From Frankia nepalensis (GTDB lineage Bacteria; Actinomycetota; Actinomycetes; Frankiales; Frankiaceae): a DNA stretch of 46,486 bases. The stretch spans positions 1 through 46,486 of the forward strand of contig NZ_JADWYU010000106.1 of NCBI RefSeq assembly GCF_016786325.1, written 5' to 3'. The translations under genes were made by a program, and so were the position numbers. Below, piece by piece: positions 8,961 through 46,486 of the stretch (position 1 is its first letter; each line of letters opens with the position of its first letter). The notes under the pieces are model-generated. The model saw only the letters and a list, made by a program, of their open reading frames with translations. It was not told the DNA's origin and did not search any database.

Positions 8961-9773
8961 TCAGACCGGGCCGGGACGCGGATCCGCCGGTCCAGGTGGC
9001 GGGCCGGAGCCGGGCCCGGGATCGGGTCCGGATTCGGGTCCTGACGCGTCGAGCAGGTCCTCGACGGTCCGCGTCAGCTGGGCGACGTCAACGCCGAGCC
9101 TCTCGAGCGCCCGCACCGGCACCCCGTCCGGCTGCTCCAGGAGGGCGAGCAGGATGTGGCCGAGGTCGACCACCGGCGCCTCGCGCCGGTCCGCGGCCGA
9201 TCGGGCGGCCCGCAACGCGCGGCGGGCCGTCGTGGTGAACAGAGGTTGCGGGGTGCCGGCCGCGTCGGACAGCTGGTATGGGGACTGGTAGGACGAGGGG
9301 ACCTGGGCCCGGCGAGGTGGTCCCTCGGCGTCCGCGGGATGGGTGTCCATCCAGGCATGCGTCTGGCGAAGCAGCTCCGCGGCGTCCTCGTCGAGGATCT
9401 CGAGGACGCGGACGGCGAGGCCCTTCCCCTCGACGAGCAGGGCGGCGAGCAGGTGCCCGCTCCCGATCATCCTCTCGTCGCGGGCGAGCGACTCCCGCAG
9501 GGACAGTTCCAGAACCGCTTTCGAGCGTGGGGTGAAAGGAATATGGCCGGACGCCGCCGGGTCGCCCGCCGGGACGATCTGTACGAGCGCTGCTCGCGCC
9601 CGCTCGTCGGTGATGCCCCGCGCGGCGAGGAACTCGCCGGCCACGTCGCCCTGCGCGGCGATCAGGCCGAGCAGCAGGTGCTCGGTCCCGATGTAGCGGT
9701 GGTTGAGCGACCGGCTGGCCTCCTGGGAGGCGACGATGGCCCGACGCGCGCCGTCGGAGAACCGTTCGAACAT
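8961..9773 (-). CDS. Stand-alone Clp N-terminal (Clp_N) repeat protein
   Basis: 270 residues. It starts MFERFSDGARRAIVASQEAS like ClpC, but no AAA+ ATPase domain follows. Clp_N-type motifs are seen three times: HRYIGTEHLLLGLIAAQGD (about 26-44), MIGSGHLLAALLVEGKG (about 101-117) and VVDLGHILLALLEQPDG (about 198-214). The tail is low-complexity G-P-D rich. In ClpC/ClpA these repeats bind substrates and adaptors such as ClpS or McsB. Small ATPase-free relatives (ClpX-free 'ClpC2-like' proteins) are known in actinobacteria and have been linked to sequestration of Clp-targeting antibiotics and stress responses; a similar role here is inference. It lies upstream of the STAND gene on the same strand with a 162-bp gap. 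The Shine-Dalgarno sequence is weak. Confidence 0.85.
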   Translation of the reverse strand: MFERFSDGARRAIVASQEASRSLNHRYIGTEHLLLGLIAAQGDVAGEFLAARGITDERARAALVQIVPAGDPAASGHIPFTPRSKAVLELSLRESLARDERMIGSGHLLAALLVEGKGLAVRVLEILDEDAAELLRQTHAWMDTHPADAEGPPRRAQVPSSYQSPYQLSDAAGTPQPLFTTTARRALRAARSAADRREAPVVDLGHILLALLEQPDGVPVRALERLGVDVAQLTRTVEDLLDASGPESGPDPGPGSGPPPGPADPRPGPV

Positions 9774-10364: not shown

Positions 10365-11300
10365 TCAACGGTCAGCGGCACGAAGCCTCGTCCGAGGCTC
10401 TCGCGGGGATGGACTGGTCACGGACCAGGTCCTGACGCCCGCCCGGTCCCACCGGGCGCCTGAGGCGCGCGTCGTTCCGGCGCGCACGGCAGTGGCCGTT
10501 GTCGGCGGCGATCCTGCCGGGCCGGCGTCGTCGAGCTCCCGTCGTCGCAGTTCGCCCGCCAGGACCAGTTGGCGGCGGGCCGCGGTGTGGTCGCCGGCCA
10601 TCGCGAAGGCGCGCGCGAGCAGGTCGTGGTTGCCCTCGGCCAGCGGGTTGCGCGCCACGGCGCGGGCGGCGTAACGGACCGCGTCGTCCGCCTGCCCGGC
10701 GGCCAGCAGCGCCGCCGTCGCGTCGCGCAGCCGGGCCTCGTGGGTGGCGGCCACCTGGTGGCGTGCCACCAGCAGCCAGGAGTCGAATCCCGGCGTGGCG
10801 GCCAGCTGCACGCCGTCGAGCAGTTCGCCGTCGAGCTCCAGCAGGGACGCGTCCGGGCCGGCCGGCCCGTGGGTGAGCAGGAGGACGTCGACCCAGACGT
10901 CGGCCCCGAGCGCCGTGCGCACCGGGTCGCCCCGGAAGGCGTCCGGCGCCGCCAGTGTCCGGCGTAGCTCGGCCAGTAGCCAGCGCAGCGCGCCGAGCGG
11001 GTCCGCCGCGTTGCCCAGCAGCAGGTCGGCGAGGTGGCGGCGGCTGGGCGCGCGGTCGGCGAGCAGCAGGTAGCACAGCAACGCCCAGGCCTTGCGCCCT
11101 CGCGGTGGCGGAACCGGCCGGCCGCCTCGCTCGATGGCCGGCGGCCCGATCAGCCGGATCTGCGTCGTCACGTCGCTGGACGCGCCGCGCGTCGTCGGCC
11201 CTTCGGCCTGCTCCGCGGCGCGCGGCAGCGGAAACGCGGCCAGCTCGGCGACGGTGGGCCGTGCCCCGGCGTGTGCCGACGCCCGTGAGGTGGTGATCAT
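10365..11300 (-). CDS. SARP-type (BTAD domain) regulator, short form
   Basis: 311 residues from ATG 11300, which is preceded by a strong AGGAGG (CAGGAGGACACCAATG). An N-terminal region with the winged-helix pattern is followed by RKAWALLCYLLLADRAPSRR and LLLGNAADPLGALRWLLAEL, then a bacterial transcriptional activation domain-like helical region (about 130-265) ending RNPLAEGNHDLLARAFAMAG and RRQLVLAGELRRREL. After that point the sequence turns into T/R/P-rich filler with no family resemblance. Relatives usually continue for several hundred residues (ATPase, cyclase or TPR domains), so this may be a truncated or frameshifted copy. SARP-like proteins activate secondary-metabolite genes by binding direct repeats. 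It follows the methyltransferase gene on the same strand after 193 bp. Confidence 0.72.
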   Translation of the reverse strand: MITTSRASAHAGARPTVAELAAFPLPRAAEQAEGPTTRGASSDVTTQIRLIGPPAIERGGRPVPPPRGRKAWALLCYLLLADRAPSRRHLADLLLGNAADPLGALRWLLAELRRTLAAPDAFRGDPVRTALGADVWVDVLLLTHGPAGPDASLLELDGELLDGVQLAATPGFDSWLLVARHQVAATHEARLRDATAALLAAGQADDAVRYAARAVARNPLAEGNHDLLARAFAMAGDHTAARRQLVLAGELRRRELDDAGPAGSPPTTATAVRAGTTRASGARWDRAGVRTWSVTSPSPREPRTRLRAADR

Positions 11301-11493: not shown

Positions 11494-12309
11494 TCAGCCG
11501 GTCCTGCGGCCGACGGCGACGAGGTACTCGGCCCGCATCAGCAGGCCGCCGTCGGTGGCGTCGTTGCGGCGGGAGACCATCGCGACGATCTCGGCGCGGC
11601 ACTCGTCCCAGCGGCCCGTGGCGGTGAGGCGCTCGCGCGCCTTGACGGTCGGGCCGTAGTGGCTCTCCATGAACGCGACGAACCGTTCCGGTGAGTCGAA
11701 CCGCCACGGGTTGTGGCCGCGGGTGAACTCGAGCTCGACCCCGCTGCCGGCGAACAGCCGGCGCACATGCGGTTCGCTGCCCCACAGCGGCGGCGGCGAC
11801 GCGTAGTCCGGCGCCGCCGGCAGGTAGCGGCCGATGAGCTTGAGCAACTCGCCGATCTGGCTCTGGGGGGTCCAGCTGACGAGGCCGATCTGCCCGCCGG
11901 GCCGGCAGACCCGCGCCAGCTCCCGCGCGGCGAGCTCGTGGCGCGGCGCGAACTGGACGCCGAAGACGGACAGCACGAGGTCGAAGCTCGCGTCGGGGTA
12001 GGGCAGCTCCTCGGCGTCGCCCTCGACCCAGTCGACGGCCACGCGGTGCTCGTGGGCGCGTCGCCGGGCGGTCTCGAACAGCTCGGGCGTGAGGTCGAGG
12101 CCGACGACCCGGGCGCCCGCGGCGGCGGCCCGCAGCGCGACGTTGCCCGTGCCGGTGGCGACGTCGAGCACCCGCGCGCCGGGTGCCAGCTCCACGCGGG
12201 CCAGCAGGTCGCGCGGGGGTGACTCGTCGATCAGCTCGGCGACGGCGGCGTAGTCGCCCGCGGCCCAGGTGGCCCGGTGAGACTGCTTGAGTTCGGCGAC
12301 GGCGGTCAT
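11494..12309 (-). CDS. Class I SAM-dependent methyltransferase
   Basis: 271 residues, ATG 12309 with AAGGAGAAC upstream. Motif I is RVLDVATGTGNVALR (46-60). The acidic residue binding the ribose is in GLDLTPELFE, and motif II/III is EGDAEELPYPDASFDLVLSVFGVQFAP. The layout is that of the Methyltransf_11/UbiE-type family, which methylate small molecules such as quinone precursors, lipids or natural products. The C-terminal part has W-G-S-E-P-H-V-R-R-L-F, seen in many actinobacterial members. It is divergent from the large SARP/AAA regulator at 12439 and shares a control region with phased direct repeats (12362-12394). The substrate cannot be told from sequence; a tailoring role in a nearby biosynthetic locus is inferred from context. 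Confidence 0.88.
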   Translation of the reverse strand: MTAVAELKQSHRATWAAGDYAAVAELIDESPPRDLLARVELAPGARVLDVATGTGNVALRAAAAGARVVGLDLTPELFETARRRAHEHRVAVDWVEGDAEELPYPDASFDLVLSVFGVQFAPRHELAARELARVCRPGGQIGLVSWTPQSQIGELLKLIGRYLPAAPDYASPPPLWGSEPHVRRLFAGSGVELEFTRGHNPWRFDSPERFVAFMESHYGPTVKARERLTATGRWDECRAEIVAMVSRRNDATDGGLLMRAEYLVAVGRRTG

Positions 12310-12361
12310 GGCTTGTTCTCCTTTTCGAGTCCGACGCCGCGAGTCTGCGCCGCGGGGGTTG

Positions 12362-12394
12362 GCGAAACCCTGCGCGAACCCTGTCGCGACCTGT
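12362..12394. promoter_or_regulatory. Three phased 11-bp direct repeats, candidate SARP operator
   Basis: GCGAAACCCTG (12362-12372), CGCGAACCCTG (12373-12383) and a weaker TCGCGACCTGT (12384-12394) follow one another at an 11-bp period. SARP regulators are known to bind direct repeats spaced one helical turn apart. The site lies between the divergent methyltransferase and the SARP/AAA gene, ending 32 bases before the latter's -10 box. Confidence 0.6.
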
Positions 12395-12425
12395 GCCGGT
12401 GCTTGCCGGGCCTGTGTGGGCGCCC

Positions 12426-12431
12426 TAGCGT
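12426..12431 (+). promoter_or_regulatory. -10 box (TAGCGT), leaderless start of the SARP/AAA regulator
   Basis: TAGCGT fits TANNNT and ends 7 bases before ATG 12439. No Shine-Dalgarno sequence is present. This pins the start of the large regulator to 12439 although the frame is open further upstream. Confidence 0.5.
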
Positions 12432-12438
12432 GCGGACC

Positions 12439-15400
12439 ATGGGGGCGCGGGTCCGGCTTTGCGGACGCCTGGAGATCGAGCTGGGCGGGGAGCGGGTCGA
12501 GAACCGGTTACCGGGCCGTCAGGGGCCGCTCGTCCTCGCGTTCCTGGTGCTCAACCGTGGCCGACCGGTCGCGCGCGACGAGCTGATCGGGGCGCTGTGG
12601 CCCGGCGAGCCGCCGGCCGATCCCGACGAGGCGCTGAGCGCGCTGCTGTCGAAGGTGCGCCGAGCGGTCGGCCGGGAGACGCTGTCGGGTCGGCGGGAGC
12701 TCACCCTGACGTTGCCGGCGGACGCGGAGGTCGACCTCGAGCGGGCGTTCGCGGCGGCGGAGCGGGCGCGGGCGGCGATCGCGGAAGGTGACTTCGCCGC
12801 GGCGTGGGCGGCGGGCTCGGCCGCGCTCGAGACCGCCAGCCAGGGGTTCCTCGTCGGCCTGGACGCGCCCTGGGTCGACGACCGGCGCCGCGAGCTCGAA
12901 CAGCTACGCCTGGGCGCGCTGGAGGCGGTTGCCGAGGCGGGAGTCGCGCTCGGCGGCGCCCGGCTGGCGGGCGCCGAGCGGGCCGCGCGCGAGCTGACGC
13001 GCGAGGCTCCGCTGCGGGAGGCGGGCCACCGGCTGCTGATGGAGGCGCTCGCCGCCCGTGGCGAGGAGGCGGAGGCGCTCGCCGCCTACGAGCAGCTGCG
13101 GGTGGCGTTGCGCGAGGAGCTCGGGACCGGGCCGGGCGCGGCGGTCCGGGCGCTGCACGCGCGGCTGCTCGCGGGCGGGGCGGCCGGCCCTCGACCGGCC
13201 CCGGCTCCAGCGCCGGCGCCGGCGTCTGCCGGGCCGCCGCGGGTGCCGCTTCCGGCGTTCCTGGCGCGCAGACGCGGGCAGTTCGTGGGGCGCGAGCGGG
13301 AGCTGGAGCTGTTGCGCGGGGCCTGGCACGGCGCCCGCGCGGGACGACGCGGGCTGGTCCTGCTGTGCGGCGGGCCGGGGATCGGCAAGACCCGCCTGGC
13401 CGGCGAGCTGTCGCGCGAGGCGCATGCCGGCGGCACGGTCCTGTACGCGGGCTGCCAGGAGGATCCGCTCGTCCCCTACCAGCCCTTCGTCGAGGCGCTG
13501 CGGCAGTACGTGCGCGGCGGGCACCTCGACGGCGCGCGCCGCCGCTTCGGGCCGGGCTGGGGGGAGCTCGCGCGGCTCATCCCCGAGCTCGCGCACCGGG
13601 GGCCTGGTGACGGCGCGCCGGAGTCCGACGACCCCGAGACGCGCCGGTACCTGATGTTCGAGGCGGTTTCCGCGCTGCTGACCGAGGCCTGCGCGCGGGC
13701 CCCGGTGCTGCTCGTCCTCGACGACCTGCACTGGGCGGACCGGTCGACCCTCCAGCTCCTGCGACACGTGGTCCGGGCTCCGCACGAGGCCGCGCTGCTG
13801 GTCGTGGGGTCCTACCGGGACCTGGAGGTCGCCCCCGAGCATCCGCTGGCCGAGCTGCTGGCGGACCTGCGGCGTGACGGCCTGTTCGAGCGGCTGCCGC
13901 TCGAGGGCCTCGACTCGCGTGGCGTGGAGACGCTGATCGCGGCACACACCGGCCAGGCGACGCCTTCGGCGCTGGTGCGGACCGTCCACGCGCAGACCGA
14001 GGGCAATCCGTTCTTCGTCGAGGAGGTCGTGCGCCACCTGATCGAGACCGGCGTGATGTTCGGGCGCGAGGGCCGCTGGGGCTCCGCCCTCACCCCGGAG
14101 CAGATCGGTGTCCCGGAAGGGGTCAAGGAGGTGCTCGCGCGCCGCCTCGCCCGCCTCTCGCAGACCTGTCGCGGCGTGCTCGCCCAGGCCGCCGTCCTCG
14201 GTCGCGACTTCCCGTTCGACCTGCTGGTGGCGATGGCCGAGCTCGGCGAGGAGCCGGTGATCGGCGCGCTGGAGGAGGCGCTGGGGGCCCGGCTCGTCGT
14301 GGAGCAGGAGGAGGGCCTGGTCTACGCGTTCACGCACGCGCTCGTGCGCGAGACGCTCTACGGAGCGCTCAGCGCGCCGCGTCGCCAGCGGATCCACGCG
14401 CGCGCGGCGCGGGCCATCGAGGGCGCCGCGGCGTCCGACCCGGAGGCACGGGTCGCCGCCCTCGCGCTGCACTACCGGCTCGCGGGCCCGACGGTCGATC
14501 CGGCGAAGGGAATCGACTACTCGCTGCGCGCCGGGGAACGCGCCCGCCAGCTGTTCGCCTGGGACGAGGCCACGGCGCACTGGGCCGGGGCGCTGGCGCT
14601 GATGGAGCGCGCCGGCGCCGAGCCGGCCGACCGGGCGCGGCTGCTCGTGACCCTGGCGGTCGTCTGCGCCGTGCTGGGCGACCTGGCCCGCGAGATCGAC
14701 TACCTGGAGCGGGCGCTCGACCTCTACCTGGGCCTGGCGGACGACGAGCGGGCGGCGCAGGTGCACTCACGCCTCGGCATGGCCCATTCGCTGATCGACT
14801 CCATCTACGCCGAGCACCTCGACATCGGCCGGGCGTTTCGCCACTTCGACGCCGCGCGGTCCGTGCTCGAGCGTGGGCCCGCGCGCACGGCCCGCGGCCA
14901 TCTCGAGACGGGAGTCGCCACGGCGCTGACCTACGGGCTGCGCATCGAGCCCGGGATCGAGGCGGCGGGCCGCGCGATGGAGATCGCCGAGCGGCTCGGC
15001 GACGAGGGCCTCTGGGCGGCCGCGACGACGGCCTACGGCTGGCACAAGTTCGCGGCCGGCGAGCTACGCGAAGCCTTCGAGGCGGAAGATCGCGCCTTCG
15101 AGGTGGCCGATCGGGGACAAAGACCGTTCCTCGCCTCGATGGCCCTCCAGATTCGTGGTCAGATGACCTGGGGACTGGGCGACCCCGATCGCGCGCAGGC
15201 CTACTTCGAGCAACTGTTCGGCCTGCCGTACGCCGGCGAGACGGCTCACCGCCAGGTGTTCGCCGACGGCATCGGCCGCTGTCACATGTCCCGGGGCGAG
15301 CTGGCACAGGCGCGGGCGCTGCTGTCCGACGCCAGGCCGACCTTCTTCACCCATTCGCTGGCGCCGCTGGTGGACCTGTGGGAAGGGAACTGGGATCGGG

Positions 15401-15993
15401 TCGAGGCGCTCGCGGGCCAGGTGCTCGAGACGAGTCGTCGAACGGCGAACCGGTGGGACGAGTGGGCGGCGCATCACCTCGCCGCGCGCGTGCTGAGTGC
15501 GCGCGGCCGGCCCGGGCCGGCCGCGCGGTCGCTCGAGCACGCGCGCCGGATCGTCGAGGAGGGCGGCGCCCGCTACTTCGAGCTGTGGGTCCTTCCCGAC
15601 CTCGCCCGCGCGTACGCCGAAACGGGACGTCTGGACGAGGCACGCCGGCACATCGATCGCTGCCGCGAGATCATCGCGGACGGCGAGGAGTGGCGTGGAA
15701 GGCGGGGCATCGTGGACGTCGCCGAGGCGGTACTGCTGAGCTTCGAGGCGCGGCCCGACGAGGCCGACGACCGGTTCGAGCGGGCCCTGGCGACGCTGCG
15801 CCACTTCAGGCTGGTAGCCGACGAGGCCGACGCCCTGCACCAGCGGGGGCTGGCCCTGGCCCGCGCGGGCGAGCGCGCGCGGGCGGGCGAGCCGTTCGAA
15901 GCGGCGGTCGCCCTCTACCGCCGGCACGAGGCCGGAGCGATCTGGCCGCGGCGCCTGGCGGACGACGCCGCTCTTCACGGCGTCAGCCGCTGA
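12439..15993 (+). CDS. Large SARP-family regulator with AAA ATPase and TPR repeats (AfsR/LAL-like)
   Basis: 1184 residues. Residues 1-90 form the OmpR-type winged helix of SARP proteins (MGARVRLCGRLEIELGGERV, then GRPVARDELIGALWPGEPP). Residues about 95-245 are the BTAD (REAGHRLLMEALAARGEEAE, ALAAYEQLRVALREELG). A proline/alanine linker follows, then an AAA_16-type ATPase: QFVGRERELELLRGAW, Walker A GGPGIGKT (311-318) and Walker B VLLVLDDLHWAD (423-434). The remaining ~650 residues are TPR-like helical repeats. No LuxR HTH is found at the C-terminus, so DNA binding must be N-terminal. Such proteins act as nucleotide-switched activators of secondary-metabolite genes. It is divergent from the methyltransferase and lies upstream of the oxygenase/glycosyltransferase operon, consistent with a pathway-specific role. 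Confidence 0.93.
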   Translation: MGARVRLCGRLEIELGGERVENRLPGRQGPLVLAFLVLNRGRPVARDELIGALWPGEPPADPDEALSALLSKVRRAVGRETLSGRRELTLTLPADAEVDLERAFAAAERARAAIAEGDFAAAWAAGSAALETASQGFLVGLDAPWVDDRRRELEQLRLGALEAVAEAGVALGGARLAGAERAARELTREAPLREAGHRLLMEALAARGEEAEALAAYEQLRVALREELGTGPGAAVRALHARLLAGGAAGPRPAPAPAPAPASAGPPRVPLPAFLARRRGQFVGRERELELLRGAWHGARAGRRGLVLLCGGPGIGKTRLAGELSREAHAGGTVLYAGCQEDPLVPYQPFVEALRQYVRGGHLDGARRRFGPGWGELARLIPELAHRGPGDGAPESDDPETRRYLMFEAVSALLTEACARAPVLLVLDDLHWADRSTLQLLRHVVRAPHEAALLVVGSYRDLEVAPEHPLAELLADLRRDGLFERLPLEGLDSRGVETLIAAHTGQATPSALVRTVHAQTEGNPFFVEEVVRHLIETGVMFGREGRWGSALTPEQIGVPEGVKEVLARRLARLSQTCRGVLAQAAVLGRDFPFDLLVAMAELGEEPVIGALEEALGARLVVEQEEGLVYAFTHALVRETLYGALSAPRRQRIHARAARAIEGAAASDPEARVAALALHYRLAGPTVDPAKGIDYSLRAGERARQLFAWDEATAHWAGALALMERAGAEPADRARLLVTLAVVCAVLGDLAREIDYLERALDLYLGLADDERAAQVHSRLGMAHSLIDSIYAEHLDIGRAFRHFDAARSVLERGPARTARGHLETGVATALTYGLRIEPGIEAAGRAMEIAERLGDEGLWAAATTAYGWHKFAAGELREAFEAEDRAFEVADRGQRPFLASMALQIRGQMTWGLGDPDRAQAYFEQLFGLPYAGETAHRQVFADGIGRCHMSRGELAQARALLSDARPTFFTHSLAPLVDLWEGNWDRVEALAGQVLETSRRTANRWDEWAAHHLAARVLSARGRPGPAARSLEHARRIVEEGGARYFELWVLPDLARAYAETGRLDEARRHIDRCREIIADGEEWRGRRGIVDVAEAVLLSFEARPDEADDRFERALATLRHFRLVADEADALHQRGLALARAGERARAGEPFEAAVALYRRHEAGAIWPRRLADDAALHGVSR

Positions 15994-16041: not shown

Positions 16042-16403
16042 TCATTCGACGCCGGCCGGCGGCCAGATCCGCGCATCGGCGCCTTGACGCCGGTCCGCGA
16101 ACTCGCGGTTCCACGACGTCGGCGCGCGCCACATCTCCCTTCGCCGGCGGATGGGATTCGCGAGCCGCCGACGGTGGATCCCACGAGGCCGGGCGAGGCA
16201 CGGGCCGATGGCCGGAAGGATGTTCCCGGCTAAATGTCCGAAATGGACGCCCCGCGTTTCCTGGCGCCCTGTCGGCGGGGCGCGACGGGTTCCGTCGACG
16301 GGCCTCGGCGCGCCTTTCTCCGGCCGCGGTGCCGCCTTCGGGGTGAATGGCCGCCGGCCTGCTAAGATCCCGATCACGGCTTGGATCGCCTCGGGGGGAT
16401 GGC

Positions 16404-17048
16404 GTGCGAACTGGGGCGAACCTCCCCTCCTTCGTCGAATGCCCGATATGGGTACGCCACGGCGCGGTGCCGCGGAAAGACTGCCGCGTGGTCATCGAGA
16501 GCATGTCCAACGCCTCGACGGTCATGGGCGGTGTGCTGCGCCAGAGCCATGACAGCGTCGACCTCCGGATGCGTCGATGCCTGGAACACCAGGTGTCCGC
16601 CACGGACGCGGCGGCCGTCCTGTCGGCGATGCGGACGACCGTCGACCAGGTACTCGACCCCGGCTCCCTGGATGGCGTCGGGTTCGACGGCCCGAAGTTC
16701 TGCAGCTACCCGCCCGGCGGCTATTTCCGCGCCCACAATGACCGTTCCGAGGATCCCGCGGACCCCGGCGTGGTACGAGGACGGCAGTTCTCGGTCGTCT
16801 GTCTCCTCAACGACGACGACCCGTCCGACCAGCTGCCCGCATTCGACGGCGGAGTACTGGTCATCCACGCGCCCCTCGGGGACGGGCGCCGCGAACCGCG
16901 GAATATCGCGATGAGGGCCGGATCCGTCGCGGTGTTCGCGGCCGATCTGCTGCACGAGGTCCGGCCGGTGCGCGGCGGCATCCGCTACTCGGCGATCGGC
17001 TGGCTTTTCCAGAAGACACCGGCGCACCAGGAACCGCACCAGGGATGA
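16404..17048 (+). CDS. 2-oxoglutarate/Fe(II)-dependent oxygenase (prolyl-4-hydroxylase-like)
   Basis: 214 residues from GTG 16404, which follows a run of six G's (16393-16398). The frame is open farther upstream but has no better start. The double-stranded beta-helix signature is clear: FCSYPPGGYFRAHNDRSED gives the H-x-D iron ligands (His111, Asp113); FDGGVLVIHAPL is the typical strand; LLHEVRPVRGGIRYSAIGW gives the distal iron ligand His184 and Arg194 for 2-oxoglutarate. This P4Hc/2OG-FeII_Oxy_3 subfamily hydroxylates peptides or small molecules. The substrate is unknown. It heads a tight four-gene operon with two glycosyltransferases, so hydroxylation followed by glycosylation of one product is a reasonable reading. 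The ATGA overlap with the next gene suggests coupled translation. Confidence 0.85.
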   Translation: MRTGANLPSFVECPIWVRHGAVPRKDCRVVIESMSNASTVMGGVLRQSHDSVDLRMRRCLEHQVSATDAAAVLSAMRTTVDQVLDPGSLDGVGFDGPKFCSYPPGGYFRAHNDRSEDPADPGVVRGRQFSVVCLLNDDDPSDQLPAFDGGVLVIHAPLGDGRREPRNIAMRAGSVAVFAADLLHEVRPVRGGIRYSAIGWLFQKTPAHQEPHQG

Positions 17049-17056
17049 GGAGACCA

Positions 17057-17824
17057 GTGGCCAGTATTCACGGTGACGTCAACGAGCGGATGGAGCTTCG
17101 GGTCACGGCCGACCTGGTCGGCGAGTTCAGGCCCGAGCTGGCCGCGTTCCTGGGGAGCCTCGACCTCGGCCGCCTCCTCGAGGAGGTGTTCATGCCGCTG
17201 ACCACCGCCGCCCGCACGAGGGTGGCCGTCGCCTACGAGGAACGGGCCTGGCCGCCCGCGGGAGTCGGTGCCCGGGCCCTGCGGGGGGTGGCGCTGGCCG
17301 TCGTGAGCGACGACGGCCAGTCCCTGCTGACGCCAGTGGTGCTGTCGCCGCAGCACGTCACCAACGTCGGGCTCGCGGCGGCGCTCACGAAGATCCTGCT
17401 CGAGGATCTCGCGGCCGATGGCACGGAATGGGTCACGATATTCGTCAACCAGCGGTCGAAGGTGGTCGCGGGCGAGCTCATGGGCGCGGGTTTCGAACCC
17501 AGGGCCGCCAGGGTGGTCACCGGGGAGACGGAGTTCACGGCGTTCGCGTCGGTACCGACCGGCGTGCTCGAGTCGCTGGGGCTCGCCGACACCCGCCTCG
17601 GGGACGTCCTCGCCCTCAATCTCGACCGGGCGCACATCTCCCGGCTGACGGCGTTTCATCTCTCGCTCGCCGCCGGTCTGACCAACTACTGGGCCGACCG
17701 CGCGCGCTGGGCCGAGGTGTTCCCCGGGTTCATCGACTGGGCGACGCTGCCGCCGGGCGGGATAACCGGCACTCCGGGGCCGGCGATCGACCCCGTCGAC
17801 CCGGTGGTCATCGTCGATAGGTGA
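17057..17824 (+). CDS. Unknown protein, weak GNAT-acyltransferase resemblance
   Basis: 255 residues from GTG 17057, with GAGGAG 5 bases upstream. An in-frame ATG at 17045 overlapping the previous stop is the alternative start. The central part (HVTNVGLAAALTKILLEDL, then TIFVNQRSKVVAGELMGAGFEPRA) has the strand-helix-strand arrangement and the final 'GF' turn typical of GNAT-like acyltransferases, but the pyrophosphate-binding Q/R-x-x-G-x-G/A signature is not clear. The N-terminal third has no recognised domain. There are no membrane segments. It sits between a 2OG oxygenase and two glycosyltransferases on one transcript, suggesting a tailoring or scaffold role in the same pathway. The assignment is tentative and should be read as hypothetical. 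Confidence 0.7.
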   Translation: MASIHGDVNERMELRVTADLVGEFRPELAAFLGSLDLGRLLEEVFMPLTTAARTRVAVAYEERAWPPAGVGARALRGVALAVVSDDGQSLLTPVVLSPQHVTNVGLAAALTKILLEDLAADGTEWVTIFVNQRSKVVAGELMGAGFEPRAARVVTGETEFTAFASVPTGVLESLGLADTRLGDVLALNLDRAHISRLTAFHLSLAAGLTNYWADRARWAEVFPGFIDWATLPPGGITGTPGPAIDPVDPVVIVDR

Positions 17825-17837
17825 GCTGGCCGCCCCG

Positions 17838-18569
17838 ATGACGGCGCCGTCGATCGAGATCGTCATCCGTTCCTACTACCGTGACCTCCGCTGGCTCGAC
17901 CTGTCGCTGCGTTCGATCGAGAGGTTCGCCACGGGACACGACCAGGTCGTCGTCGTGGTTCCGCGGAGCAGCCTGCCGAGAATCCCCAGCGAGATTCCGC
18001 TGCCCAGGCCCGGAGTGCGGCTGCGCGTCTGCCGCGACTACCCCGACGACTACGTGGGCCAGCAGATCACGAAACTGCACGCCGACCGGTACTCCGCCGC
18101 GGACGTGATCCTCCACCTCGACTCCGACCAGGTCTTCGTCGAGCCCTGTGACCTGCGGGCGCGGCTGTTCAGCGGATCCCTGCCACGCGTGTCGTACGAC
18201 ACCGGCGGGCGAAGACCAGGACCGGACGGATGGCGCCGGTGCCCGGAGGTCTTCTTCGGCCGGCCGATCGACTGGGACCTGACGGCCCCGCCGCCGCTGA
18301 CGCTTCCCCGGCACGTCTACCCCGCGCTCCGGAGATACTGCGAGGCCCGGCACGGCGTCTCGCTGTCCTCCTATGCGCGGGCCACCGCGCCGCACCGCCT
18401 CTGCGAGGTCGCGCTGCTGCGCGGTTTCGTCCTGCTGACCGAACCGGACCACTACCGGTGGGTGGACGTGCGGGACACCGATCCGCTCCCGGAATGCCGG
18501 ACGTTCTGGAGCCGCCTCCAGACGCCGGACTCGGCGGCGGACCAACTCCCAGCGGAACTCAGGCGATGA
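17838..18569 (+). CDS. GT-A-like glycosyltransferase (DUF6492-type)
   Basis: 243 residues. ATG 17838, 13 bases after the previous stop, with AGGTGAG-like sequence upstream. The opening IEIVIRSYYRDLRWLDLSLRSI and the segment VILHLDSDQVFVEPCDL form a GT-A nucleotide-sugar fold with a D-S-D metal-binding motif. The arrangement (R-S-Y-x-x-D near the N-terminus, Y-V-G-Q-Q-I-T-K-L-H-A-D, then L-D-S-D) matches the DUF6492 glycosyltransferase-like group. The sugar donor is not known. It overlaps the next glycosyltransferase gene by four bases (ATGA), so both are translated together and probably act on the same acceptor. Confidence 0.75.
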   Translation: MTAPSIEIVIRSYYRDLRWLDLSLRSIERFATGHDQVVVVVPRSSLPRIPSEIPLPRPGVRLRVCRDYPDDYVGQQITKLHADRYSAADVILHLDSDQVFVEPCDLRARLFSGSLPRVSYDTGGRRPGPDGWRRCPEVFFGRPIDWDLTAPPPLTLPRHVYPALRRYCEARHGVSLSSYARATAPHRLCEVALLRGFVLLTEPDHYRWVDVRDTDPLPECRTFWSRLQTPDSAADQLPAELRR

Positions 18570-19447
18570 GCCGCGACCAGCCGGTCTCCGTGGTGATCTC
18601 GACGTTTCAGGAGGGCGACGCGCTGGCGGCGACCGTCGCGTCACTCGACGAGGCGGAAGACGCGCCCCACGAGATCATCGTGGTGGACGACGGCAGTACC
18701 GACGGCAGCTGCGACCGGGCGTGGCCAGCGCGGGTCCGGGTCCTTCGGCAGGCGCACCACGGCATCGCCGCGGCGCGCAACCGTGGGGCGCGCGTCGCGA
18801 CCCAGCCGGTCGTCGTCTTCCTGGACGCGCACTGCGCCGTCGAGGGGCCGTGGCTGCGCCCCCTGCTGCGGGTGCTTGGCGAGGCGCCTCGAGCACTGGT
18901 CGGGCCGGCGGTGCGAGACGCCGACGACCGGCGCTACGTCGGCTGCGGCGCCGAGATCGTCGACGAGTTGTTCACCTACCGGTGGCGCCGGGCCGCCGCG
19001 GACGAAGGGGTGGTCGAGGTCGGCCTGGTGCCGGGAGGATGCCTGGCGGTCAGGCGCGACACGTTCATGGCGGCCGGCGGATTCGCCGACTTCGAGGGGT
19101 TCGGCGTCGAGGACGTGGAACTCGCGCTGAGGTGGTGGCGAGCGGGACACCCGCTGCTCGGCGTTCCGGAGTCCCTGGTGACCCACAGGTTCCGTGCCAC
19201 GGCTCCCTACCGCCCAGATCACCGGGCGTGGCTGCAGAACGTGCTGCGCACCGCGCTGCTCCATCTCTCCGGAGACCAGCTACGCGCCTGCGTGTCGGCC
19301 TGCACCCGGTTCGAGCTCTTCGGCCCAGCCATCGCGACCGCCCTGGCGAAGCCCTGGATGGAGCTTCATCGCCAGCTGGCGGAGACGGAGCACCGTCCGG
19401 TGGAGGAGTACCTGCGGAGATGGGCGCCAAAAGCCTTCCCTGGCTGA
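18566..19447 (+). CDS. Family 2 glycosyltransferase with GalNAc-transferase-like C-terminus
   Basis: 293 residues. ATG 18566 overlaps the upstream stop. The N-terminal half is a classic GT2 domain: VSVVISTFQEGDALAATVAS, HEIIVVDDGSTDGS and VVFLDAHCAVEGPWL (D-x-H metal site). The C-terminal half has CLAVRRDTFMAAGGFADFEG followed by FGVEDVELALRWWRAGHPL and V-T-H-R-F-R, which resembles the Glyco_transf_7C segment of polypeptide GalNAc transferases and related enzymes. It is cytoplasmic, without membrane segments. It is the last gene of the oxygenase operon and converges on the lipoprotein gene at 19559. A peptide acceptor is an attractive idea given the repeat peptide 1 kb downstream, but that is inference. 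Confidence 0.87.
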   Translation: MSRDQPVSVVISTFQEGDALAATVASLDEAEDAPHEIIVVDDGSTDGSCDRAWPARVRVLRQAHHGIAAARNRGARVATQPVVVFLDAHCAVEGPWLRPLLRVLGEAPRALVGPAVRDADDRRYVGCGAEIVDELFTYRWRRAAADEGVVEVGLVPGGCLAVRRDTFMAAGGFADFEGFGVEDVELALRWWRAGHPLLGVPESLVTHRFRATAPYRPDHRAWLQNVLRTALLHLSGDQLRACVSACTRFELFGPAIATALAKPWMELHRQLAETEHRPVEEYLRRWAPKAFPG

Positions 19448-19558: not shown

Positions 19559-19990
19559 TCAGCAGTCGATGCCGTGCTCGCTCAGCTCGGCCCTCAGCAC
19601 GCTGAGCGAGGGGTTGTCGGGCCAGCTCTTGTCGTTCTCGACGTCGTGGTCCCTGCCGTTGGCGTCCCGGACGTCGTCGACGTCGAAGTAGTTGGCCAGG
19701 CTGGATTTGCTGGCGTCGTTCTCGAGCTCGACGTCGCACGCGGCGGGATCGGCGTCCGTGTTCACGGACACGTGTGCGTCGTACGCGACGAGCACCGTCT
19801 TGGAGCCCTTCTTCTCCTTGTCGGACGTGACCTCGACCGAGCCGAACCCGTTTGCCTTGAGCTTGTCGGCGAACTTCTTCGCGTTGTTCTTCGACCCGCA
19901 GCCGGTCAGTACCATCGCCACGATGAGAAGCGGTGCCACCAGGACGGCGACGAAAGTCCTGGGAGCGTTCTTTCTCCACCTGAGACTCAT
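19559..19990 (-). CDS. DUF4333-type lipoprotein
   Basis: 143 residues. ATG 19990 with GCAGGAATC upstream. A signal peptide with two arginines near the N-terminus and a hydrophobic core (TFVAVLVAPLLIVAMVLTGC) ends in the lipobox LTGC, so Cys31 should be lipidated and the protein anchored outside the cell membrane. The mature part (~110 residues) is charged and has F-A-D-K-L-K-A-N-G-F-G-S-V-E-V and two further cysteines (C near the middle and at the end), which fits the DUF4333 group of small actinobacterial lipoproteins. The function is unknown. It is transcribed against the flanking plus-strand operons and may be independent of them. Confidence 0.8.
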   Translation of the reverse strand: MSLRWRKNAPRTFVAVLVAPLLIVAMVLTGCGSKNNAKKFADKLKANGFGSVEVTSDKEKKGSKTVLVAYDAHVSVNTDADPAACDVELENDASKSSLANYFDVDDVRDANGRDHDVENDKSWPDNPSLSVLRAELSEHGIDC

Positions 19991-20439
19991 ATGCTGATTC
20001 CTGCCTTCATCCGTGAGTATCCGTCGAGGAGCCGCTGCTCATCGCGTGTCGGGCGGGGTGCGAGCCGGGCGGTCATCTCCAGCCCGGCTGAACCGGGCTC
20101 GGCCGGACAGAAGCCGCGAACCAGGACCACATGACGCCGATGATTCCAGACGTGGCCGGGACCAGGGCCGTCAGTCCGGCGACAGCCCGTCCGGGCGGCG
20201 GCCCCGCTGGGCGCGGCGCTCGCCAGCGGCGGCGATCATGCGTGGGCAGGCCCGCGCGGCGGCGCGAGCGGTGACCGGCGCGAGTAACGCTCGCCGGCAG
20301 TGAGTAGCAGGGCGGCCAAGTCCGGTATCGCCTGCTCATGAGGTCGCTCCCGAGCCAGGTTTCACTGGCGCCGACGGTCAGGCACGCCCCCCGCACCGGC
20401 GGGTGGCACGGAGGCCAGGCCGCGAGCTCAGGAGGAATC
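19991..20439. other. Intergenic region between divergent lipoprotein and repeat-peptide genes
   Basis: 449 bp with no gene I can support. It must hold both promoters. A 7-bp hairpin AGCCCGG/CCGGGCT (20081-20099) and an imperfect GGCG..CGCC hairpin near 20277-20296 are visible. An in-frame ATG at 20338 would add 34 residues to the peptide, but the strong ribosome binding site is at the GTG 20440. Confidence 0.4.
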
Positions 20440-20649
20440 GTGGAGATCACCACCAGTACCACCCCGGCCACCTCGGCACTGGCTCTCGCCGGTCTCAGCA
20501 CGAACCACAGCCAGGTGGTGCTCACGGGGCTGAGCACGAACCACAGCCAGGTGGTGCTCACCGGGTTGAGCACGAACCACAGCCAGGTGGTGCTCACGGG
20601 GCTGAGCACGAACCACAACCAGGTCGTCCTCGTCGCGACGGCCCGCTGA
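20440..20649 (+). CDS. 69-residue peptide with four LSTNHSQVVLTG repeats; candidate multi-core RiPP precursor or peptide signal
   Basis: GTG 20440 is preceded by AGGAGGAATC, one of the best ribosome binding sites in the window. The product has an 18-residue leader-like part (MEITTSTTPATSALALAG), three exact 12-residue repeats LSTNHSQVVLTG, and a fourth variant LSTNHNQVVLVATAR that ends the protein. The four base differences among the first three repeats are all synonymous, so the peptide sequence seems to be under selection. The leader lacks a Sec signal and the peptide has no cysteine, which excludes lanthipeptide or sactipeptide chemistry. Repeated cores behind a short leader, next to an exporter, are the hallmark of multi-core ribosomal peptides and prepro-pheromones. 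No known precursor family is recognised with certainty. It precedes MFS and TPR genes on the same strand by 103 bp. Confidence 0.7.
   Translation: MEITTSTTPATSALALAGLSTNHSQVVLTGLSTNHSQVVLTGLSTNHSQVVLTGLSTNHNQVVLVATAR
20494..20646 (+). repeat. Four in-frame 36-bp repeats inside the peptide gene
   Basis: Units start at 20494, 20530, 20566 and 20602. All share AGCACGAACCACA, and the first three share AGCACGAACCACAGCCAGGT. The fourth unit diverges after NHNQVVL and runs to the stop. The period is exactly 12 codons with no spacer. It is a coding repeat, not a CRISPR array. Confidence 0.95.
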
Positions 20650-20752
20650 CCGCGACGTCCCTCACGCCGGCGGGGCCCGGCGAATCGTCCGGGTCCCGCC
20701 AGCGTCACGCCATCTCCGTCGGACGAGCCGTTGACGGGACCAGCCACGCGCT

Positions 20753-27012: not shown

Positions 27013-29736
27013 TCAACCGGGCTGGCTGCCCAGCGCGTCCGCCAGCTCGTCGCGCCGGGAGATCCCCAGCTTGGCGTAGGCGCTGTAGAGATGGTTGTCC
27101 ACGGTACGGACCGAGACGGTGAGCGCCTCGGCGACCGCGCGGCTGCTCATGCCCCGGGCGACCAGGAGGCAGACCTCCCGTTCCCGCCTGGTCAGCGGCA
27201 TGGCCTGGACCACGGCGTCGGCCAGCGGCGGCGTCACGGCCCCCTCGCAGCTGGCCGCGAGAGCCCGCGCGCGCGTGGACAGGGCGGCGGCCGCCCTCGT
27301 GCCGCCACGCTGGTACCGCAGCGCCTGGGCCGTCGCCTCGGCCGCGTACAGCAGGGCTCCCGCCGACTCGAACGCGGACGACGCGGCGGTCAGCAGCCGG
27401 GCGTCGCCGGCCTCGAGACCGCGGACATAGCTGACCCTCGCCCTCAGCAGCGGGCTGTCCGTACCCGCGGGCAGCTCGTCGAGGCAGACCGCCGCGGCCG
27501 AGGCGGCGCCGAGCCGGGCCAGGTCGTGCGCGGCCGCGACGCCAAAGGCCAGCTGGCCCGCGGCCAGGGCGTGGGTGGCCGAACGCCGCAGCCGCTCGAC
27601 GGCGTCGCCGGCGCGGCCGGCGGCGGCCAGGCTCCAGGCATGCGCCCGGTCGGCGAGCGCGGTGTAGTCCTCCGGCACGCCAAGCCCGTACAACTGCTCG
27701 ATGACCTGCTCACAGGTGGGGACGTCGCCGAGATAGGCGGCGCACACGGCCAGCCCGGCGAGCGACCGCAGCCGCGGGTCGTCGAATCCGTGATCGCGCG
27801 CGACCGCGATCGTCTCCCGGAACCAGCGGCCGGCGGTACGCGGCCGACCGGCCGTCAGGTGGCACTGGCCCAGCAGGTAGGCGAGCGCGGCGTGGCCCGA
27901 GGTGACGAGGTCCTCGACCGCGTGCCGCAGGCCGTCCTCGGCCGTCAGGACCGCCTCGGCCAGCCGGCCACCCTGGTACAGCGCGGTGGCGCGGGCGTAG
28001 GCGAGGAACGACGGATGCAGGACCGCCTCGGTGCCGCCGCCCGCGCCACCCCCGCCCCCGCCGGCGCCGGCGGTACTCGTGGCGGTGACGACGACGGCTC
28101 CACCGGTGATCGCCGTGGCGTCCGCCGTGCGGCCCAGGAGCGCCAGCGTGACGGCGCGCGCGAGCACGCCGACGGTGCCGGTGACGCCGTCCAGCCCGGC
28201 CCTGGTCCCCGCGAGCACGGCCTGCGCCTCTCGCGGTCGATAGCACAGCGTGAGGACGAGCGCGATGACCTCCGCGGCCTCGTCCCGCTCGGGCTCGGGC
28301 AGGGCCCGTCGGGCCGCCCCGAGCACCGCCAGCGCGTCGGTGGGGCGCAGCAGGCCCCAGGCCAGGTTCACGGCCCGCAGCACGGCGATCCTCAGCCGGA
28401 CGGCGGGCGCGCTCGCGTGCGTCTCCGCGCGGGCGAAGATCTTCTCGGCCTCGTCGATCCGGCCCAGGTGGCCGACGGCCTCAGCGAGCAGCCCGCCAGC
28501 CTCGGCCGCCAGGTCGCCAGGCCCGCGTGCCTCGACGGCCGCCCGCGCGAGCCGTTCGACCTGGCCGAAGTCGTGGGCGTCGCGGCTGAGGCGGGCGGCG
28601 CGCAGCAGCAGCCCCGCGTCGGCCGCCTCGCCCACCTCGAGCTGCCAGATCGCCACCCGAAGCGCGTCGTCGCGGCGGCGGACGCCCAGGGCCCGCAGCC
28701 GGGCGATCTCGGCGCGCAGCACGCTGTCCGTCCGCACCCGGGACATCTCGGAGCCGATGACCTGCGCGTACAGCGGATGGGCCAACGTGACGGGCCGCCG
28801 GCGCCCGTCCTCCCGGACCTCGATCACGCCGAGGGTCTCGAGCCGGTCGAGCAGGTCGGTGGGCACCTGTTTCGACAGGTCCGCGAGTCCGACCGGTTCG
28901 CACAGCGCCAGCCGGCGCAGGACACCGAGCCCCTCGTCCCCGACGGCGCCGACCCTCGCGGCCAGCAGGTCGCGCAGCCGCCCCCCGGGAACCAGCTTGC
29001 GGGTCAGCCGCCACACGCCGTTGTCGGCGACCAGGCCGCCGTCCTCCCAGGCACCGAGGAGCAGCTCCCGCAGGTACAGGACGTTGCCCTGACTGGCCGC
29101 CCACAGCGCGGCGGATCCGGTCGCCGTCACCGGCCCGTCCAGCACCAGGTGCAGCAGCTGGTCGACGTCGGCGCGGCCGAGCACGTCGAGCTCGACCCGG
29201 ACGGCCCGATCGGCCGAGACCAGTCCATCGACCAGTTCCGGCACCGGTTCGGAGCTGCGCAGCGTCGCGACGAGGAAGATCTCTCCGCTGGCCGTGTGCT
29301 GGGCGAGGACGTTCAACGAGACCGTGTCCAACAGGTGCAGGTCGTCGACGAACAGCACCAGCCGGCGGCCGCCGGCCCGCCGCCGGATGGCCTCCCGGCT
29401 CCAGTGGTAGAGCCCGACCGCCTCCGGCAGGTCGTCGGTGGTCGACGGGCGCGCCGACGCCGGCTCGTCTCGAGCATCTTCCTGCGGGAAGACGTGCACC
29501 AGCGCGGCCAGGGGCATGCTCGCTGCGGCCCGGGTGGCGACCGCCCGGGCGGTGGGCGCTCCGCCACGGGCCGCCCGGACCAGGCACTCGTCGCCCAGCC
29601 GGGTCTTGCCCACGCCGGCGGGTCCCACGACGAGAAACGCGGCGACGCGGCGGTCGGCAAGACATTCGTCGAACAGCCGAAGGTTGTCCACTCGACCAAC
29701 AATTGGCCACCGCCCACGCAGGAGATGCCCATTCAC
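27013..29736 (-). CDS. LuxR family regulator with N-terminal AAA ATPase (LAL type)
   Basis: 907 residues, GTG 29736. The N-terminus carries an AAA_16-type ATPase: PIVGRVDNLRLFDECLADRR, Walker A GPAGVGKT (38-45) and Walker B RLVLFVDDLHLLD. The middle is helical/TPR-like. A glycine run (AGGGGGGAGGG) marks a flexible linker near residue 570. The C-terminal HTH is of the LuxR/GerE type: LTRREREVCLLVARGMSSRA, V-A-E-A-L-T-V-S-V-R-T-V-D-N-H-L-Y-S-A-Y-A-K-L-G-I. LAL proteins of this size (MalT-like) activate secondary-metabolite or sugar genes in response to a ligand and ATP. It has no obvious operon partner; the flanking regions are convergent tetR on one side and a gene-poor 1 kb on the other, so its target is unknown. 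Confidence 0.93.
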   Translation of the reverse strand: MNGHLLRGRWPIVGRVDNLRLFDECLADRRVAAFLVVGPAGVGKTRLGDECLVRAARGGAPTARAVATRAAASMPLAALVHVFPQEDARDEPASARPSTTDDLPEAVGLYHWSREAIRRRAGGRRLVLFVDDLHLLDTVSLNVLAQHTASGEIFLVATLRSSEPVPELVDGLVSADRAVRVELDVLGRADVDQLLHLVLDGPVTATGSAALWAASQGNVLYLRELLLGAWEDGGLVADNGVWRLTRKLVPGGRLRDLLAARVGAVGDEGLGVLRRLALCEPVGLADLSKQVPTDLLDRLETLGVIEVREDGRRRPVTLAHPLYAQVIGSEMSRVRTDSVLRAEIARLRALGVRRRDDALRVAIWQLEVGEAADAGLLLRAARLSRDAHDFGQVERLARAAVEARGPGDLAAEAGGLLAEAVGHLGRIDEAEKIFARAETHASAPAVRLRIAVLRAVNLAWGLLRPTDALAVLGAARRALPEPERDEAAEVIALVLTLCYRPREAQAVLAGTRAGLDGVTGTVGVLARAVTLALLGRTADATAITGGAVVVTATSTAGAGGGGGGAGGGTEAVLHPSFLAYARATALYQGGRLAEAVLTAEDGLRHAVEDLVTSGHAALAYLLGQCHLTAGRPRTAGRWFRETIAVARDHGFDDPRLRSLAGLAVCAAYLGDVPTCEQVIEQLYGLGVPEDYTALADRAHAWSLAAAGRAGDAVERLRRSATHALAAGQLAFGVAAAHDLARLGAASAAAVCLDELPAGTDSPLLRARVSYVRGLEAGDARLLTAASSAFESAGALLYAAEATAQALRYQRGGTRAAAALSTRARALAASCEGAVTPPLADAVVQAMPLTRREREVCLLVARGMSSRAVAEALTVSVRTVDNHLYSAYAKLGISRRDELADALGSQPG

Positions 29737-45599: not shown

Positions 45600-46486
45600 G
45601 TGAACCGTAACGCTCTGAACAAGAACATCGCCAAAGCCATCTTCGTGGCGTCGGCGACAACCTGCCTGCTCGGCCCTATGGGAGTCAGCCAGGCGTTCGC
45701 CGCCAGCGCTGTCCCGGCCGACGGGAAGGCTGTGCCGGAAAGCCACGGAGTGCCAGGCCCTAACGGGGCGTTGGGGCTCGAATCCAGTAAGACGCTGAAG
45801 GTGCAGCTTTTTGACGACAAGAGGGGGCCGCGAGGTTACCCGGGTCCGCGGGGACCGCAGGGCCCACAAGGCGCCCCCGGTATCCCCGGTACGCAGGGTG
45901 CCCCCGGTACGCAGGGTGAGCCTGGTACGCCGGGTACGCAGGGCGCTCCCGGTACGCAGGGTTTCCAGGGCTTCCAGGGCGGTCCCGGTACGCAGGGTGC
46001 TCCGGGTACGCCGGGTACGCAGGGTGCCCCCGGCACCCAGGGTGAGCCTGGTACTCCAGGTACGCAGGGCACTCCCGGTACTCCCGGTACGCAGGGTGCT
46101 CCGGGTACGCCGGGTACGCAGGGTGCTCCCGGTACGCAGGGTGAGCCTGGTACTCCAGGTACGCAGGGCACTCCCGGTACTCCCGGTACGCAGGGTGCTC
46201 CGGGTACGCCGGGTACGCAGGGTGCTCCCGGTACGCAGGGTGAGCCTGGTACTCCAGGTACGCAGGGCACTCCCGGTACTCCCGGTACGCAGGGTGCTCC
46301 GGGTACGCCGGGTACGCAGGGTGCCCCCGGCACCCAGGGTGAGCCCGGTACTCCAGGTACGCAGGGCACTCCCGGTACGCCTGGTACGCAGGGCACTCCC
46401 GGTACGCCTGGTACGCAGGGTGCTCCGGGTACGCCGGGTACGCAGGGTGCCCCCGGCACCCAGGGTGAGCCCGGTACTCCAGGTAC
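45600..46486 (+). CDS. Secreted collagen-like protein (Gly-X-Y repeats), cut by window edge
   Basis: 295 codons are visible from GTG 45600, with GGAGA 8 bases upstream; an in-frame ATG at 45576 is the alternative. The N-terminus is a Sec signal peptide ([28 protein letters not shown]) with cleavage likely after AFA. A ~40-residue non-collagenous part follows. From 45825 every third residue is glycine: [20 protein letters not shown], then mostly GTQ, GAP, GTP and GEP triplets, about 73 in the window. Such sequences can form collagen-type triple helices, rich here in T and Q instead of hydroxyproline-type positions. Bacterial collagen-like proteins are usually surface or spore-filament components. 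The C-terminal anchor is outside the window. Confidence 0.9.
45915..46486 (+). repeat. 99-bp super-repeats in the collagen-like gene
   Basis: The GGTGAGCC element recurs at 45915, 46041, 46140, 46239, 46338 and 46464. The spacing is 99 bp three times and 126 bp at the first and last step, so units of eleven Gly-X-Y triplets were duplicated and trimmed by 27 bp (nine residues). The copies are nearly identical, pointing to recent expansion by slippage or recombination. Confidence 0.9.

Follow-up and report, generated by a model that had tools for sequence, protein, structure and literature searches.

We describe a peptide gene with repeated units in a 46,486-nucleotide stretch of Frankia nepalensis DNA (contig NZ_JADWYU010000106.1, assembly GCF_016786325.1; hereafter the window), together with the family to which its product belongs. 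The gene encodes 69 residues and is followed by genes for a major facilitator superfamily (MFS) transporter and a tetratricopeptide repeat (TPR) protein. An in-frame peptide with two to seven copies of the motif N-H-x-[EQ]-x plus two hydrophobic residues is encoded at each of eleven loci, of which three belong to the window's own genome, five to family f17 and three to Streptomyces plasmids. At all eleven an MFS transporter and a TPR protein adjoin the peptide, fused into one protein at the locus C67. Because the same type of peptide stands beside the same transporter and helper in other actinomycetes, it appears to represent a family of exported peptides that has gone undescribed. Sequence comparison indicates, and supports well, an actinomycete peptide family with a dedicated MFS-TPR pair that was apparently not described before; its motif was not found in the literature searched by motif string and by topic.

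An earlier reading of the window from its letters alone (the sequence-only reading) had proposed a multi-core precursor of a ribosomally synthesized and post-translationally modified peptide (RiPP) or a peptide signal, and anticipated related loci with a variable number of copies, the repeat kept in frame and an exporter close by; the eleven loci agree with these expectations.

Eleven loci with a repeated motif, a transporter and a TPR protein

A locus was counted as a member when a peptide with at least two in-frame NHx[EQ] units is encoded next to genes for MFS and TPR proteins, which holds at all eleven. At C67, in the own genome, a divergent open reading frame (ORF) encodes ...TRFNHAEVVLP...FRLNHAEVVLPGLAR beside a 799-residue MFS-TPR fusion, whose MFS is 49% identical to that of the window in an own-genome search. 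The other own-genome locus, C14, encodes ...MNHNQIVLAPPSADPGIELNHNQIVLAG ahead of the MFS and TPR genes, in a peptide whose start codon is uncertain. In G307, LNHNEVVL...LNHSEVVL...LNHNESLIG lies directly before an MFS gene; Acrocarpospora catenulata has four units followed by MFS and then TPR, and Microtetraspora fusca has the order MFS, three-unit peptide, TPR. The G465 peptide contains five GLSLNHxE units and that of G464 two GLSTNHNETVL units, each with MFS and TPR genes. On plasmids, tblastn found two loci in Streptomyces sp. NBC_01334 (NZ_CP130719.1; NBC_01334a and b) and one with seven NHSEVVV units in Streptomyces sp. 3211 (NZ_CP020040.1). WP_121413644.1 (L154 5851-6048), listed as a hypothetical protein of 65 residues, also belongs to the family; its two NHNE units lie far apart.

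The loci were not drawn blindly. The window was given; three loci were reached through the motif (G307, Acrocarpospora and Microtetraspora) and all turned out to have MFS and TPR genes; six were reached through the MFS (C67, C14, G465, G464, NBC_01334a and Streptomyces sp. 3211, the last also through the TPR) and all turned out to have the peptide; NBC_01334b was reached through the TPR. When the 223 proteins predicted at the eleven loci, from stretches of unequal length, were compared all against all, the MFS and TPR proteins alone occurred at every locus, and the window peptide fell into one group with the Acrocarpospora and G465 peptides (57-63% identity).

A DNA pattern of two motifs matched only the own genome and G307 among 393 genomes of the class, and 14 stretches of the genome_contigs collection. 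Two of these stretches, from Acrocarpospora catenulata and Microtetraspora fusca, are members; L059 and L050 were discarded after reading, and the ten others gave no multi-unit peptide in a screen by motif script only. The single motif occurred in 36 of 341 f17 genomes, comprising three members (G307, G393 and G463), 31 genomes with lone motifs, mostly within longer frames, and two that were left uninspected (G669 and G670). It missed G464 and G465, both of which were recovered by a profile (A1) built from six MFS proteins. Applied to 150 f17 genomes, this profile returned five proteins passing 1e-110: three already known, plus G465 at 624 bits and G464 at 513 bits, the lowest member score. 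Both newcomers carry the peptide that the DNA pattern had missed. When the profile was run on the 393 genomes of the class, scores of 544-663 bits went to G307 and to the three copies of the own genome, all four of which are part of the profile, and the next best protein reached 358. Thirty loci from that search were examined: G307 and C67 are members, and the 28 weaker ones showed no multi-unit peptide by motif script, with one weak single match in L142. Gene calling around six early MFS relatives (L026-L031) gave no such peptide either, and the weaker MFS (33%) encoded on NZ_CP109191.1 is accompanied by neither a listed TPR gene nor an NHx[EQ] peptide.

As a whole, the window peptide has no accepted homologue outside its strain in direct searches, a finding that the sequence-only reading had named as one that would speak against it; the motif family, however, extends well beyond the strain. 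The peptide retrieved only itself from the own genome and nothing from plasmids; in 146 genomes including its own, nine matches passed E 0.1 and no homologue was accepted, the best besides the window (E 0.005, 31% identity) lying inside a long frame; and none of 259 pattern stretches in genome_contigs was confirmed. The Acrocarpospora peptide gave 15 stretches in viral contigs, none confirmed, and the G465 peptide a single weak plasmid match, to a Staphylococcus SdrD-like repeat protein (E 0.01). This lack of whole-peptide matches, together with a 36-base tandem repeat in a GC-rich genome (20497-20631, 3.8 copies, 92% match by TRF), is what one would expect of a tandem-repeat accident in DNA without a protein product. 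In our view, ten other loci with diverged sequences and the same motif, frame and neighbours already exclude that explanation, which we hold to be vanishingly improbable.

No named family was known for the core at the outset, and the scans agree: no NCBIfam family lies above its cut-off on any of the eleven peptides, and no Pfam family on the ten scanned (NBC_01334a was left out). A Pfam match of Thr_synth_N to the Streptomyces sp. 3211 peptide (23.5 bits, cut-off 25) was taken as chance.

Such genes are easily overlooked, as judged from the plasmids. On NZ_CP020040.1 a listed coding sequence on the opposite strand (9145-9705) covers the seven-unit gene (L155 9304-9729), which is itself unlisted, and the gene table also omits one peptide of the NBC_01334 pair; that table is incomplete, so that the original records may differ. 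The motif and the MFS-TPR pair together offer a handle for genome mining.

Conserved units and unconserved N-terminal stretches

The 69-residue frame starts with GTG at 20440 behind an AGGAGG ribosome binding site (20430-20435), as the sequence-only reading had it, and its division into 18 N-terminal residues and four cores stands as the architecture of a multi-unit precursor: VEITTSTTPATSALALAG, three copies of LSTNHSQVVLTG and a final LSTNHNQVVLVATAR, each unit being 12 residues long. Written alone, the unit-type peptide sequence is GLSTNHSQVVLTG. G+C content by codon position (0.57/0.50/0.93) follows the pattern of the clear genes of the window, and the third-position value fits a coding frame. 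The peptide contains no cysteine, as had been stated, and no aromatic residue; a Sec signal was not seen, judged by eye only. Cysteine is absent from seven of eight peptides compared, the C14 peptide having one outside its units, and from the three plasmid peptides.

Units 1 to 3 differ at three sites, all synonymous, as had been noted, although the selection deduced from them does not follow with the same force: three sites prove little. Unit 4 differs from each other unit by four to five non-synonymous changes, and at C14, G307, Microtetraspora and G465, half of the eight loci compared, most differences between units are non-synonymous. We regard the synonymous sites as weak evidence of selection on the peptide and set them aside as main evidence.

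The motif itself is sharply defined. The first eight loci supply 25 units, every one of which has N and H; E (19) or Q (6) stands at +3, the last two positions (+5 and +6) are V/L and L/I throughout, +2 is N or S in 20 and G occupies -4 in 21, giving the consensus G-L-S-[TL]-N-H-[NS]-[EQ]-x-V-L; the plasmid loci broaden it with NHNQAVV, NHNEIVV, NHNEILI and NHSEVVV. The pattern has ten matches in the own genome (four in the window ORF, two in the C67 peptide and four elsewhere) against none for a reversed control. When loci totalling 996,546 bases (a sum that includes overlapping copies) were searched for two NH.[EQ].[VLI][LI] motifs within 40 residues, such doublets turned up in eight peptides only, all beside MFS and TPR genes, and reversed doublets in none.

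Most RiPPs have a conserved leader, and the sequence-only reading had expected one here. The N-terminal stretches instead look mutually unrelated by eye, and it is the repeated motif that is kept. RiPPs usually show the opposite arrangement, and the one seen here points to recognition of the unit itself. NHNESLIG closes the peptides of G307 (L048 1875-2027) and G465 (L149 1173-1391) and departs from the units inside them; it may form a separate cap at the C-terminus.

A putative export route and its alternatives

In the explanation that we favour, to which we give an even chance, the peptide is a multi-unit precursor whose units dock on the cytosolic TPR protein and leave through the MFS pump. 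The window ORF would supply several copies of one recognition unit, probably made in excess over the pump, given its own ribosome binding site and the hairpin ahead of the MFS gene in a gap of 103 bases. The NHx[EQ] units would dock in the groove of the TPR protein, which would pass the chain to the pump; a locus-specific peptidase or modifying enzyme may act on it, and the product could serve as a secreted signal or natural product.

The predicted model of the window TPR protein forms a TPR superhelix from about residue 77. Its best sequence relatives in the PDB are mostly kinesin light chains (KLC), and six members all have Asn at 264, 348 and 390. According to PMC3314626 and PMC6214655, the KLC groove binds short linear motifs, partly via Asn pairs, and recognises W-acidic and Y-acidic motifs. 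KLC is the closest natural sequence relative in the PDB; the NHx[EQ] units are unlike its motifs, and binding is putative here. If the TPR protein does read the units, bacteria would be employing an adaptor of the KLC kind in peptide export, and would thereby offer a ready means of passing multi-unit peptides through a pump made of one component.

Several observations weigh against this explanation. Expression, binding, transport and product are all deduced from sequence. TPR folds are generic: the model matches APPBP2, LGN, MalT and the Rap/NprR pheromone receptors at higher Z than KLC, and the analogy of Asn contacts to peptide backbone rests on an alignment and on the same two papers (PMC3314626, PMC6214655) rather than on a complex. 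The hairpin was folded at four loci only and is weak in G307 (z -1.08), the other values being -2.66 and -0.26 for the first and second pieces of Acrocarpospora and -7.71 for C14. The peptide gene follows the MFS gene in Microtetraspora and is divergent at C67; co-transcription is therefore not universal. The control on 28 MFS loci sought this motif only, within the loci examined, and the MFS of NBC_01334b is no closer to that of the window than is one negative control.

A further point is that MFS proteins usually carry small molecules, which MFS pumps commonly export. The peptide might accordingly stay inside the cell and adjust an MFS-TPR pump with small-molecule cargo, either by docking on it as a ligand or by inhibiting it, and a fixed motif with free spacers does resemble a binding ligand. 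The multi-unit build, the gene's own strong ribosome binding site and the hairpin after it suit a secreted precursor better, however, and copy number ranges from two to seven; we rate this alternative as highly unlikely.

The units might also be pheromones, exported by the MFS and re-imported to bind the TPR protein, which in the manner of Rap or NprR would be an intracellular receptor and would control neighbouring regulators of the BTAD or LuxR type. By raw count, BTAD or LuxR-type AAA regulators lie within the stretches of six of the eleven loci, and this keeps the signal explanation alive. The window TPR has a superhelix similar to that of RRNPP-type receptors, with no second folded domain in its model, where residues 1-74 are mostly of low confidence. 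We consider a pheromone system unlikely.

Modifying enzymes, known systems and neighbouring genes

A strict RiPP, whose units would be modified before export by enzymes acting in trans or varying from locus to locus, is a possibility that we entertain tentatively. In G464 a class IV lanthionine synthetase (LanL; NF038150, 1058.9 bits against a cut-off of 650, with the zinc-ligand motifs HWCSG and ACHG kept), an S9 peptidase, the peptide, MFS and TPR form one same-strand run, and no convincing cysteine-containing LanA was seen in the G464 stretches searched. Methyltransferases 72-81% identical to one another lie near the trio in G307 (L048 10085-10897), G465 (L151 11585-12403) and G464 (L152 17293-18000), a GNAT-type protein in G307, G465 and C67, and three cytochromes P450 flank C67. 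A 2-oxoglutarate (2OG) oxygenase and glycosyltransferases stand 1-4 kb upstream of the window peptide, and other RiPP systems occur near three loci: an ATP-grasp cluster in G307, a LanKC in Microtetraspora and a LanM in Streptomyces sp. 3211.

The 223-protein comparison nevertheless found no modifying enzyme common to all or most loci, the maximum being three of eleven, and no such enzyme was recognised next to the Acrocarpospora trio or at the two NBC_01334 loci, where some of the neighbours were scanned. The Microtetraspora LanKC and the G307 ATP-grasp have candidate precursors of their own; the oxygenase run of the window is cut off from the peptide gene by a small opposite-strand gene (19559-19990), which also separates the upstream regulator, and has no relatives at the other ten loci; and leaders are not conserved. 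Because no enzyme is common to the loci, we do not file the window peptide as a RiPP, though it is built like a multi-core precursor: of the original proposal, the multi-unit precursor stands.

Comparison with characterised systems leads the same peptide away from three memberships, namely Cys-based lanthipeptides, FxSxx systems and biphenomycin. Having no cysteine, it lacks the Ser/Thr and Cys core of lanthipeptides, and no lanthionine synthetase was found among the window genes scanned. The biphenomycin cluster (bipABC...) has the same gene order of precursor, MFS transporter and TPR-annotated protein; according to PMC12707348 and PMC12257519, its precursor bears a single C-terminal FRFRS core and is served by several modifying enzymes, and BipC, in which metal-binding motifs occur, is reported to be an arginase. 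The window peptide, devoid of aromatic residues, has no FRF-type core, and scans of 26 of the 37 predicted window genes found no arginase, MNIO or radical SAM family. The TPR protein of FxSxx-COOH/HaaA cyclophane RiPP systems (NF040586, cut-off 300 bits) is the best NCBIfam match of three family TPR proteins, all below cut-off (window 133.5, Acrocarpospora 100.8, Microtetraspora 122.8); none of the eleven peptides ends in FxSxx, and the same scans, which covered 26 of 37 window genes, gave no radical SAM family.

Noursin shares features with G464. PMC10206099 describes a LanKC, an S9 peptidase and a His-to-butyrine crosslink from residue 8 to His11; G464 likewise has a lanthionine synthetase and an S9 peptidase beside a His-containing peptide, with Ser and His at i and i+3 in GLSTNH, the spacing of the noursin link. 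Its synthetase is LanL rather than LanKC, however, its peptide has two short units and no Cys, and it has MFS and TPR genes; Ser occupies that position in only 14 of the 25 units. A bolder extension of the favoured export route, which we find doubtful, would make the pair a KLC-like export machine: the TPR protein, at one locus fused to the pump, would read the repeated NHx[EQ] tag and feed the MFS, a route directed by the core motif and not by a leader could be borrowed by differing tailoring enzymes, and LanL-linked S-x-N-H units might yield Cys-free crosslinks between histidine and dehydroamino acids.

Features of the window (46,486 nucleotides) discussed in the text
Feature	Position	Strand	Basis or remark
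BTAD/AAA_16/TPR regulator	12277..15993	+	Candidate link to peptide only; related BTAD regulators at C14 and G464
Four-gene run, possible tailoring genes (unproven)	16347..19447	+	
AGGAGG ribosome binding site	20430..20435	+	Read from sequence; 4 bases before GTG
Multi-unit peptide gene, 69 aa, GTG start	20440..20649	+	ORF reading, translation, codon-position G+C
N-terminal stretch VEITTSTTPATSALALAG, 18 residues, leader-like	20440..20493	+	Relatives without conserved counterpart
Unit 1, LSTNHSQVVLTG	20494..20529	+	Unit comparison
Unit 2, LSTNHSQVVLTG	20530..20565	+	Unit comparison
Unit 3, LSTNHSQVVLTG	20566..20601	+	Unit comparison
Unit 4, LSTNHNQVVLVA, then TAR and stop	20602..20637	+	Unit comparison
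Hairpin between peptide gene and MFS gene	20669..20700	+	z -2.27 for 20640-20752
MFS transporter, 500 aa	20753..22255	+	PF07690 E 9e-33; family profile A1
TPR protein, 439 aa	22252..23571	+	Start overlaps MFS stop (ATGA); TPR_12 matches in longer reading of frame
LuxR-type AAA_16 regulator	27013..29691	-	Candidate link only; related regulators at G307, Microtetraspora and NBC_01334b

The upstream run comprises a 2OG-Fe(II) oxygenase, proteins at 17045-17824 and 17838-18569, and a family 2 glycosyltransferase (18566-19447). A relative of the 17045-17824 protein occurs in one other of 146 genomes, and another in an Eleftheria terrae plasmid gene (L012 8980-10335) annotated as a 2OG-Fe(II) oxygenase, neither at a trio locus; the latter joint gene suggests that this protein and the oxygenase are a functional pair. 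The run was not adopted as a tailoring set because these relatives of the one protein lie outside trio loci and the run has none at the other ten loci. Downstream of the trio lie cytochrome c oxidase genes.

On the far side of the regulators, the window (10365-11300) and C14 (L033 13176-14000) encode BTAD-like proteins 72% identical, and the two regions look as if related beyond the trio. The G307 ATP-grasp cluster (L048 4400-9154) directly follows the TPR gene and encodes a C39 peptidase-ABC transporter, an MvdD-like ATP-grasp protein, a TIGR04500 protein and two GG-leader-like peptides (6686-6838, with a weak GRASP_targ_2 match, and 6888-7043). In Microtetraspora fusca (L096), the class III LanKC gene (12366-14942) is immediately followed by that of a short Cys-containing candidate LanA (12261-12359). 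C67 also has a neighbouring ThiF/nitroreductase gene, a member of NF005901 (Rv1355c family) that is probably unrelated. Finally, a long tandem array with a 27-base consensus runs from 45876 to the window end at 46486 and reads, on the + strand, as the collagen-like Gly-Thr-Gln-Gly-Ala-Pro-Gly-Thr-Pro.
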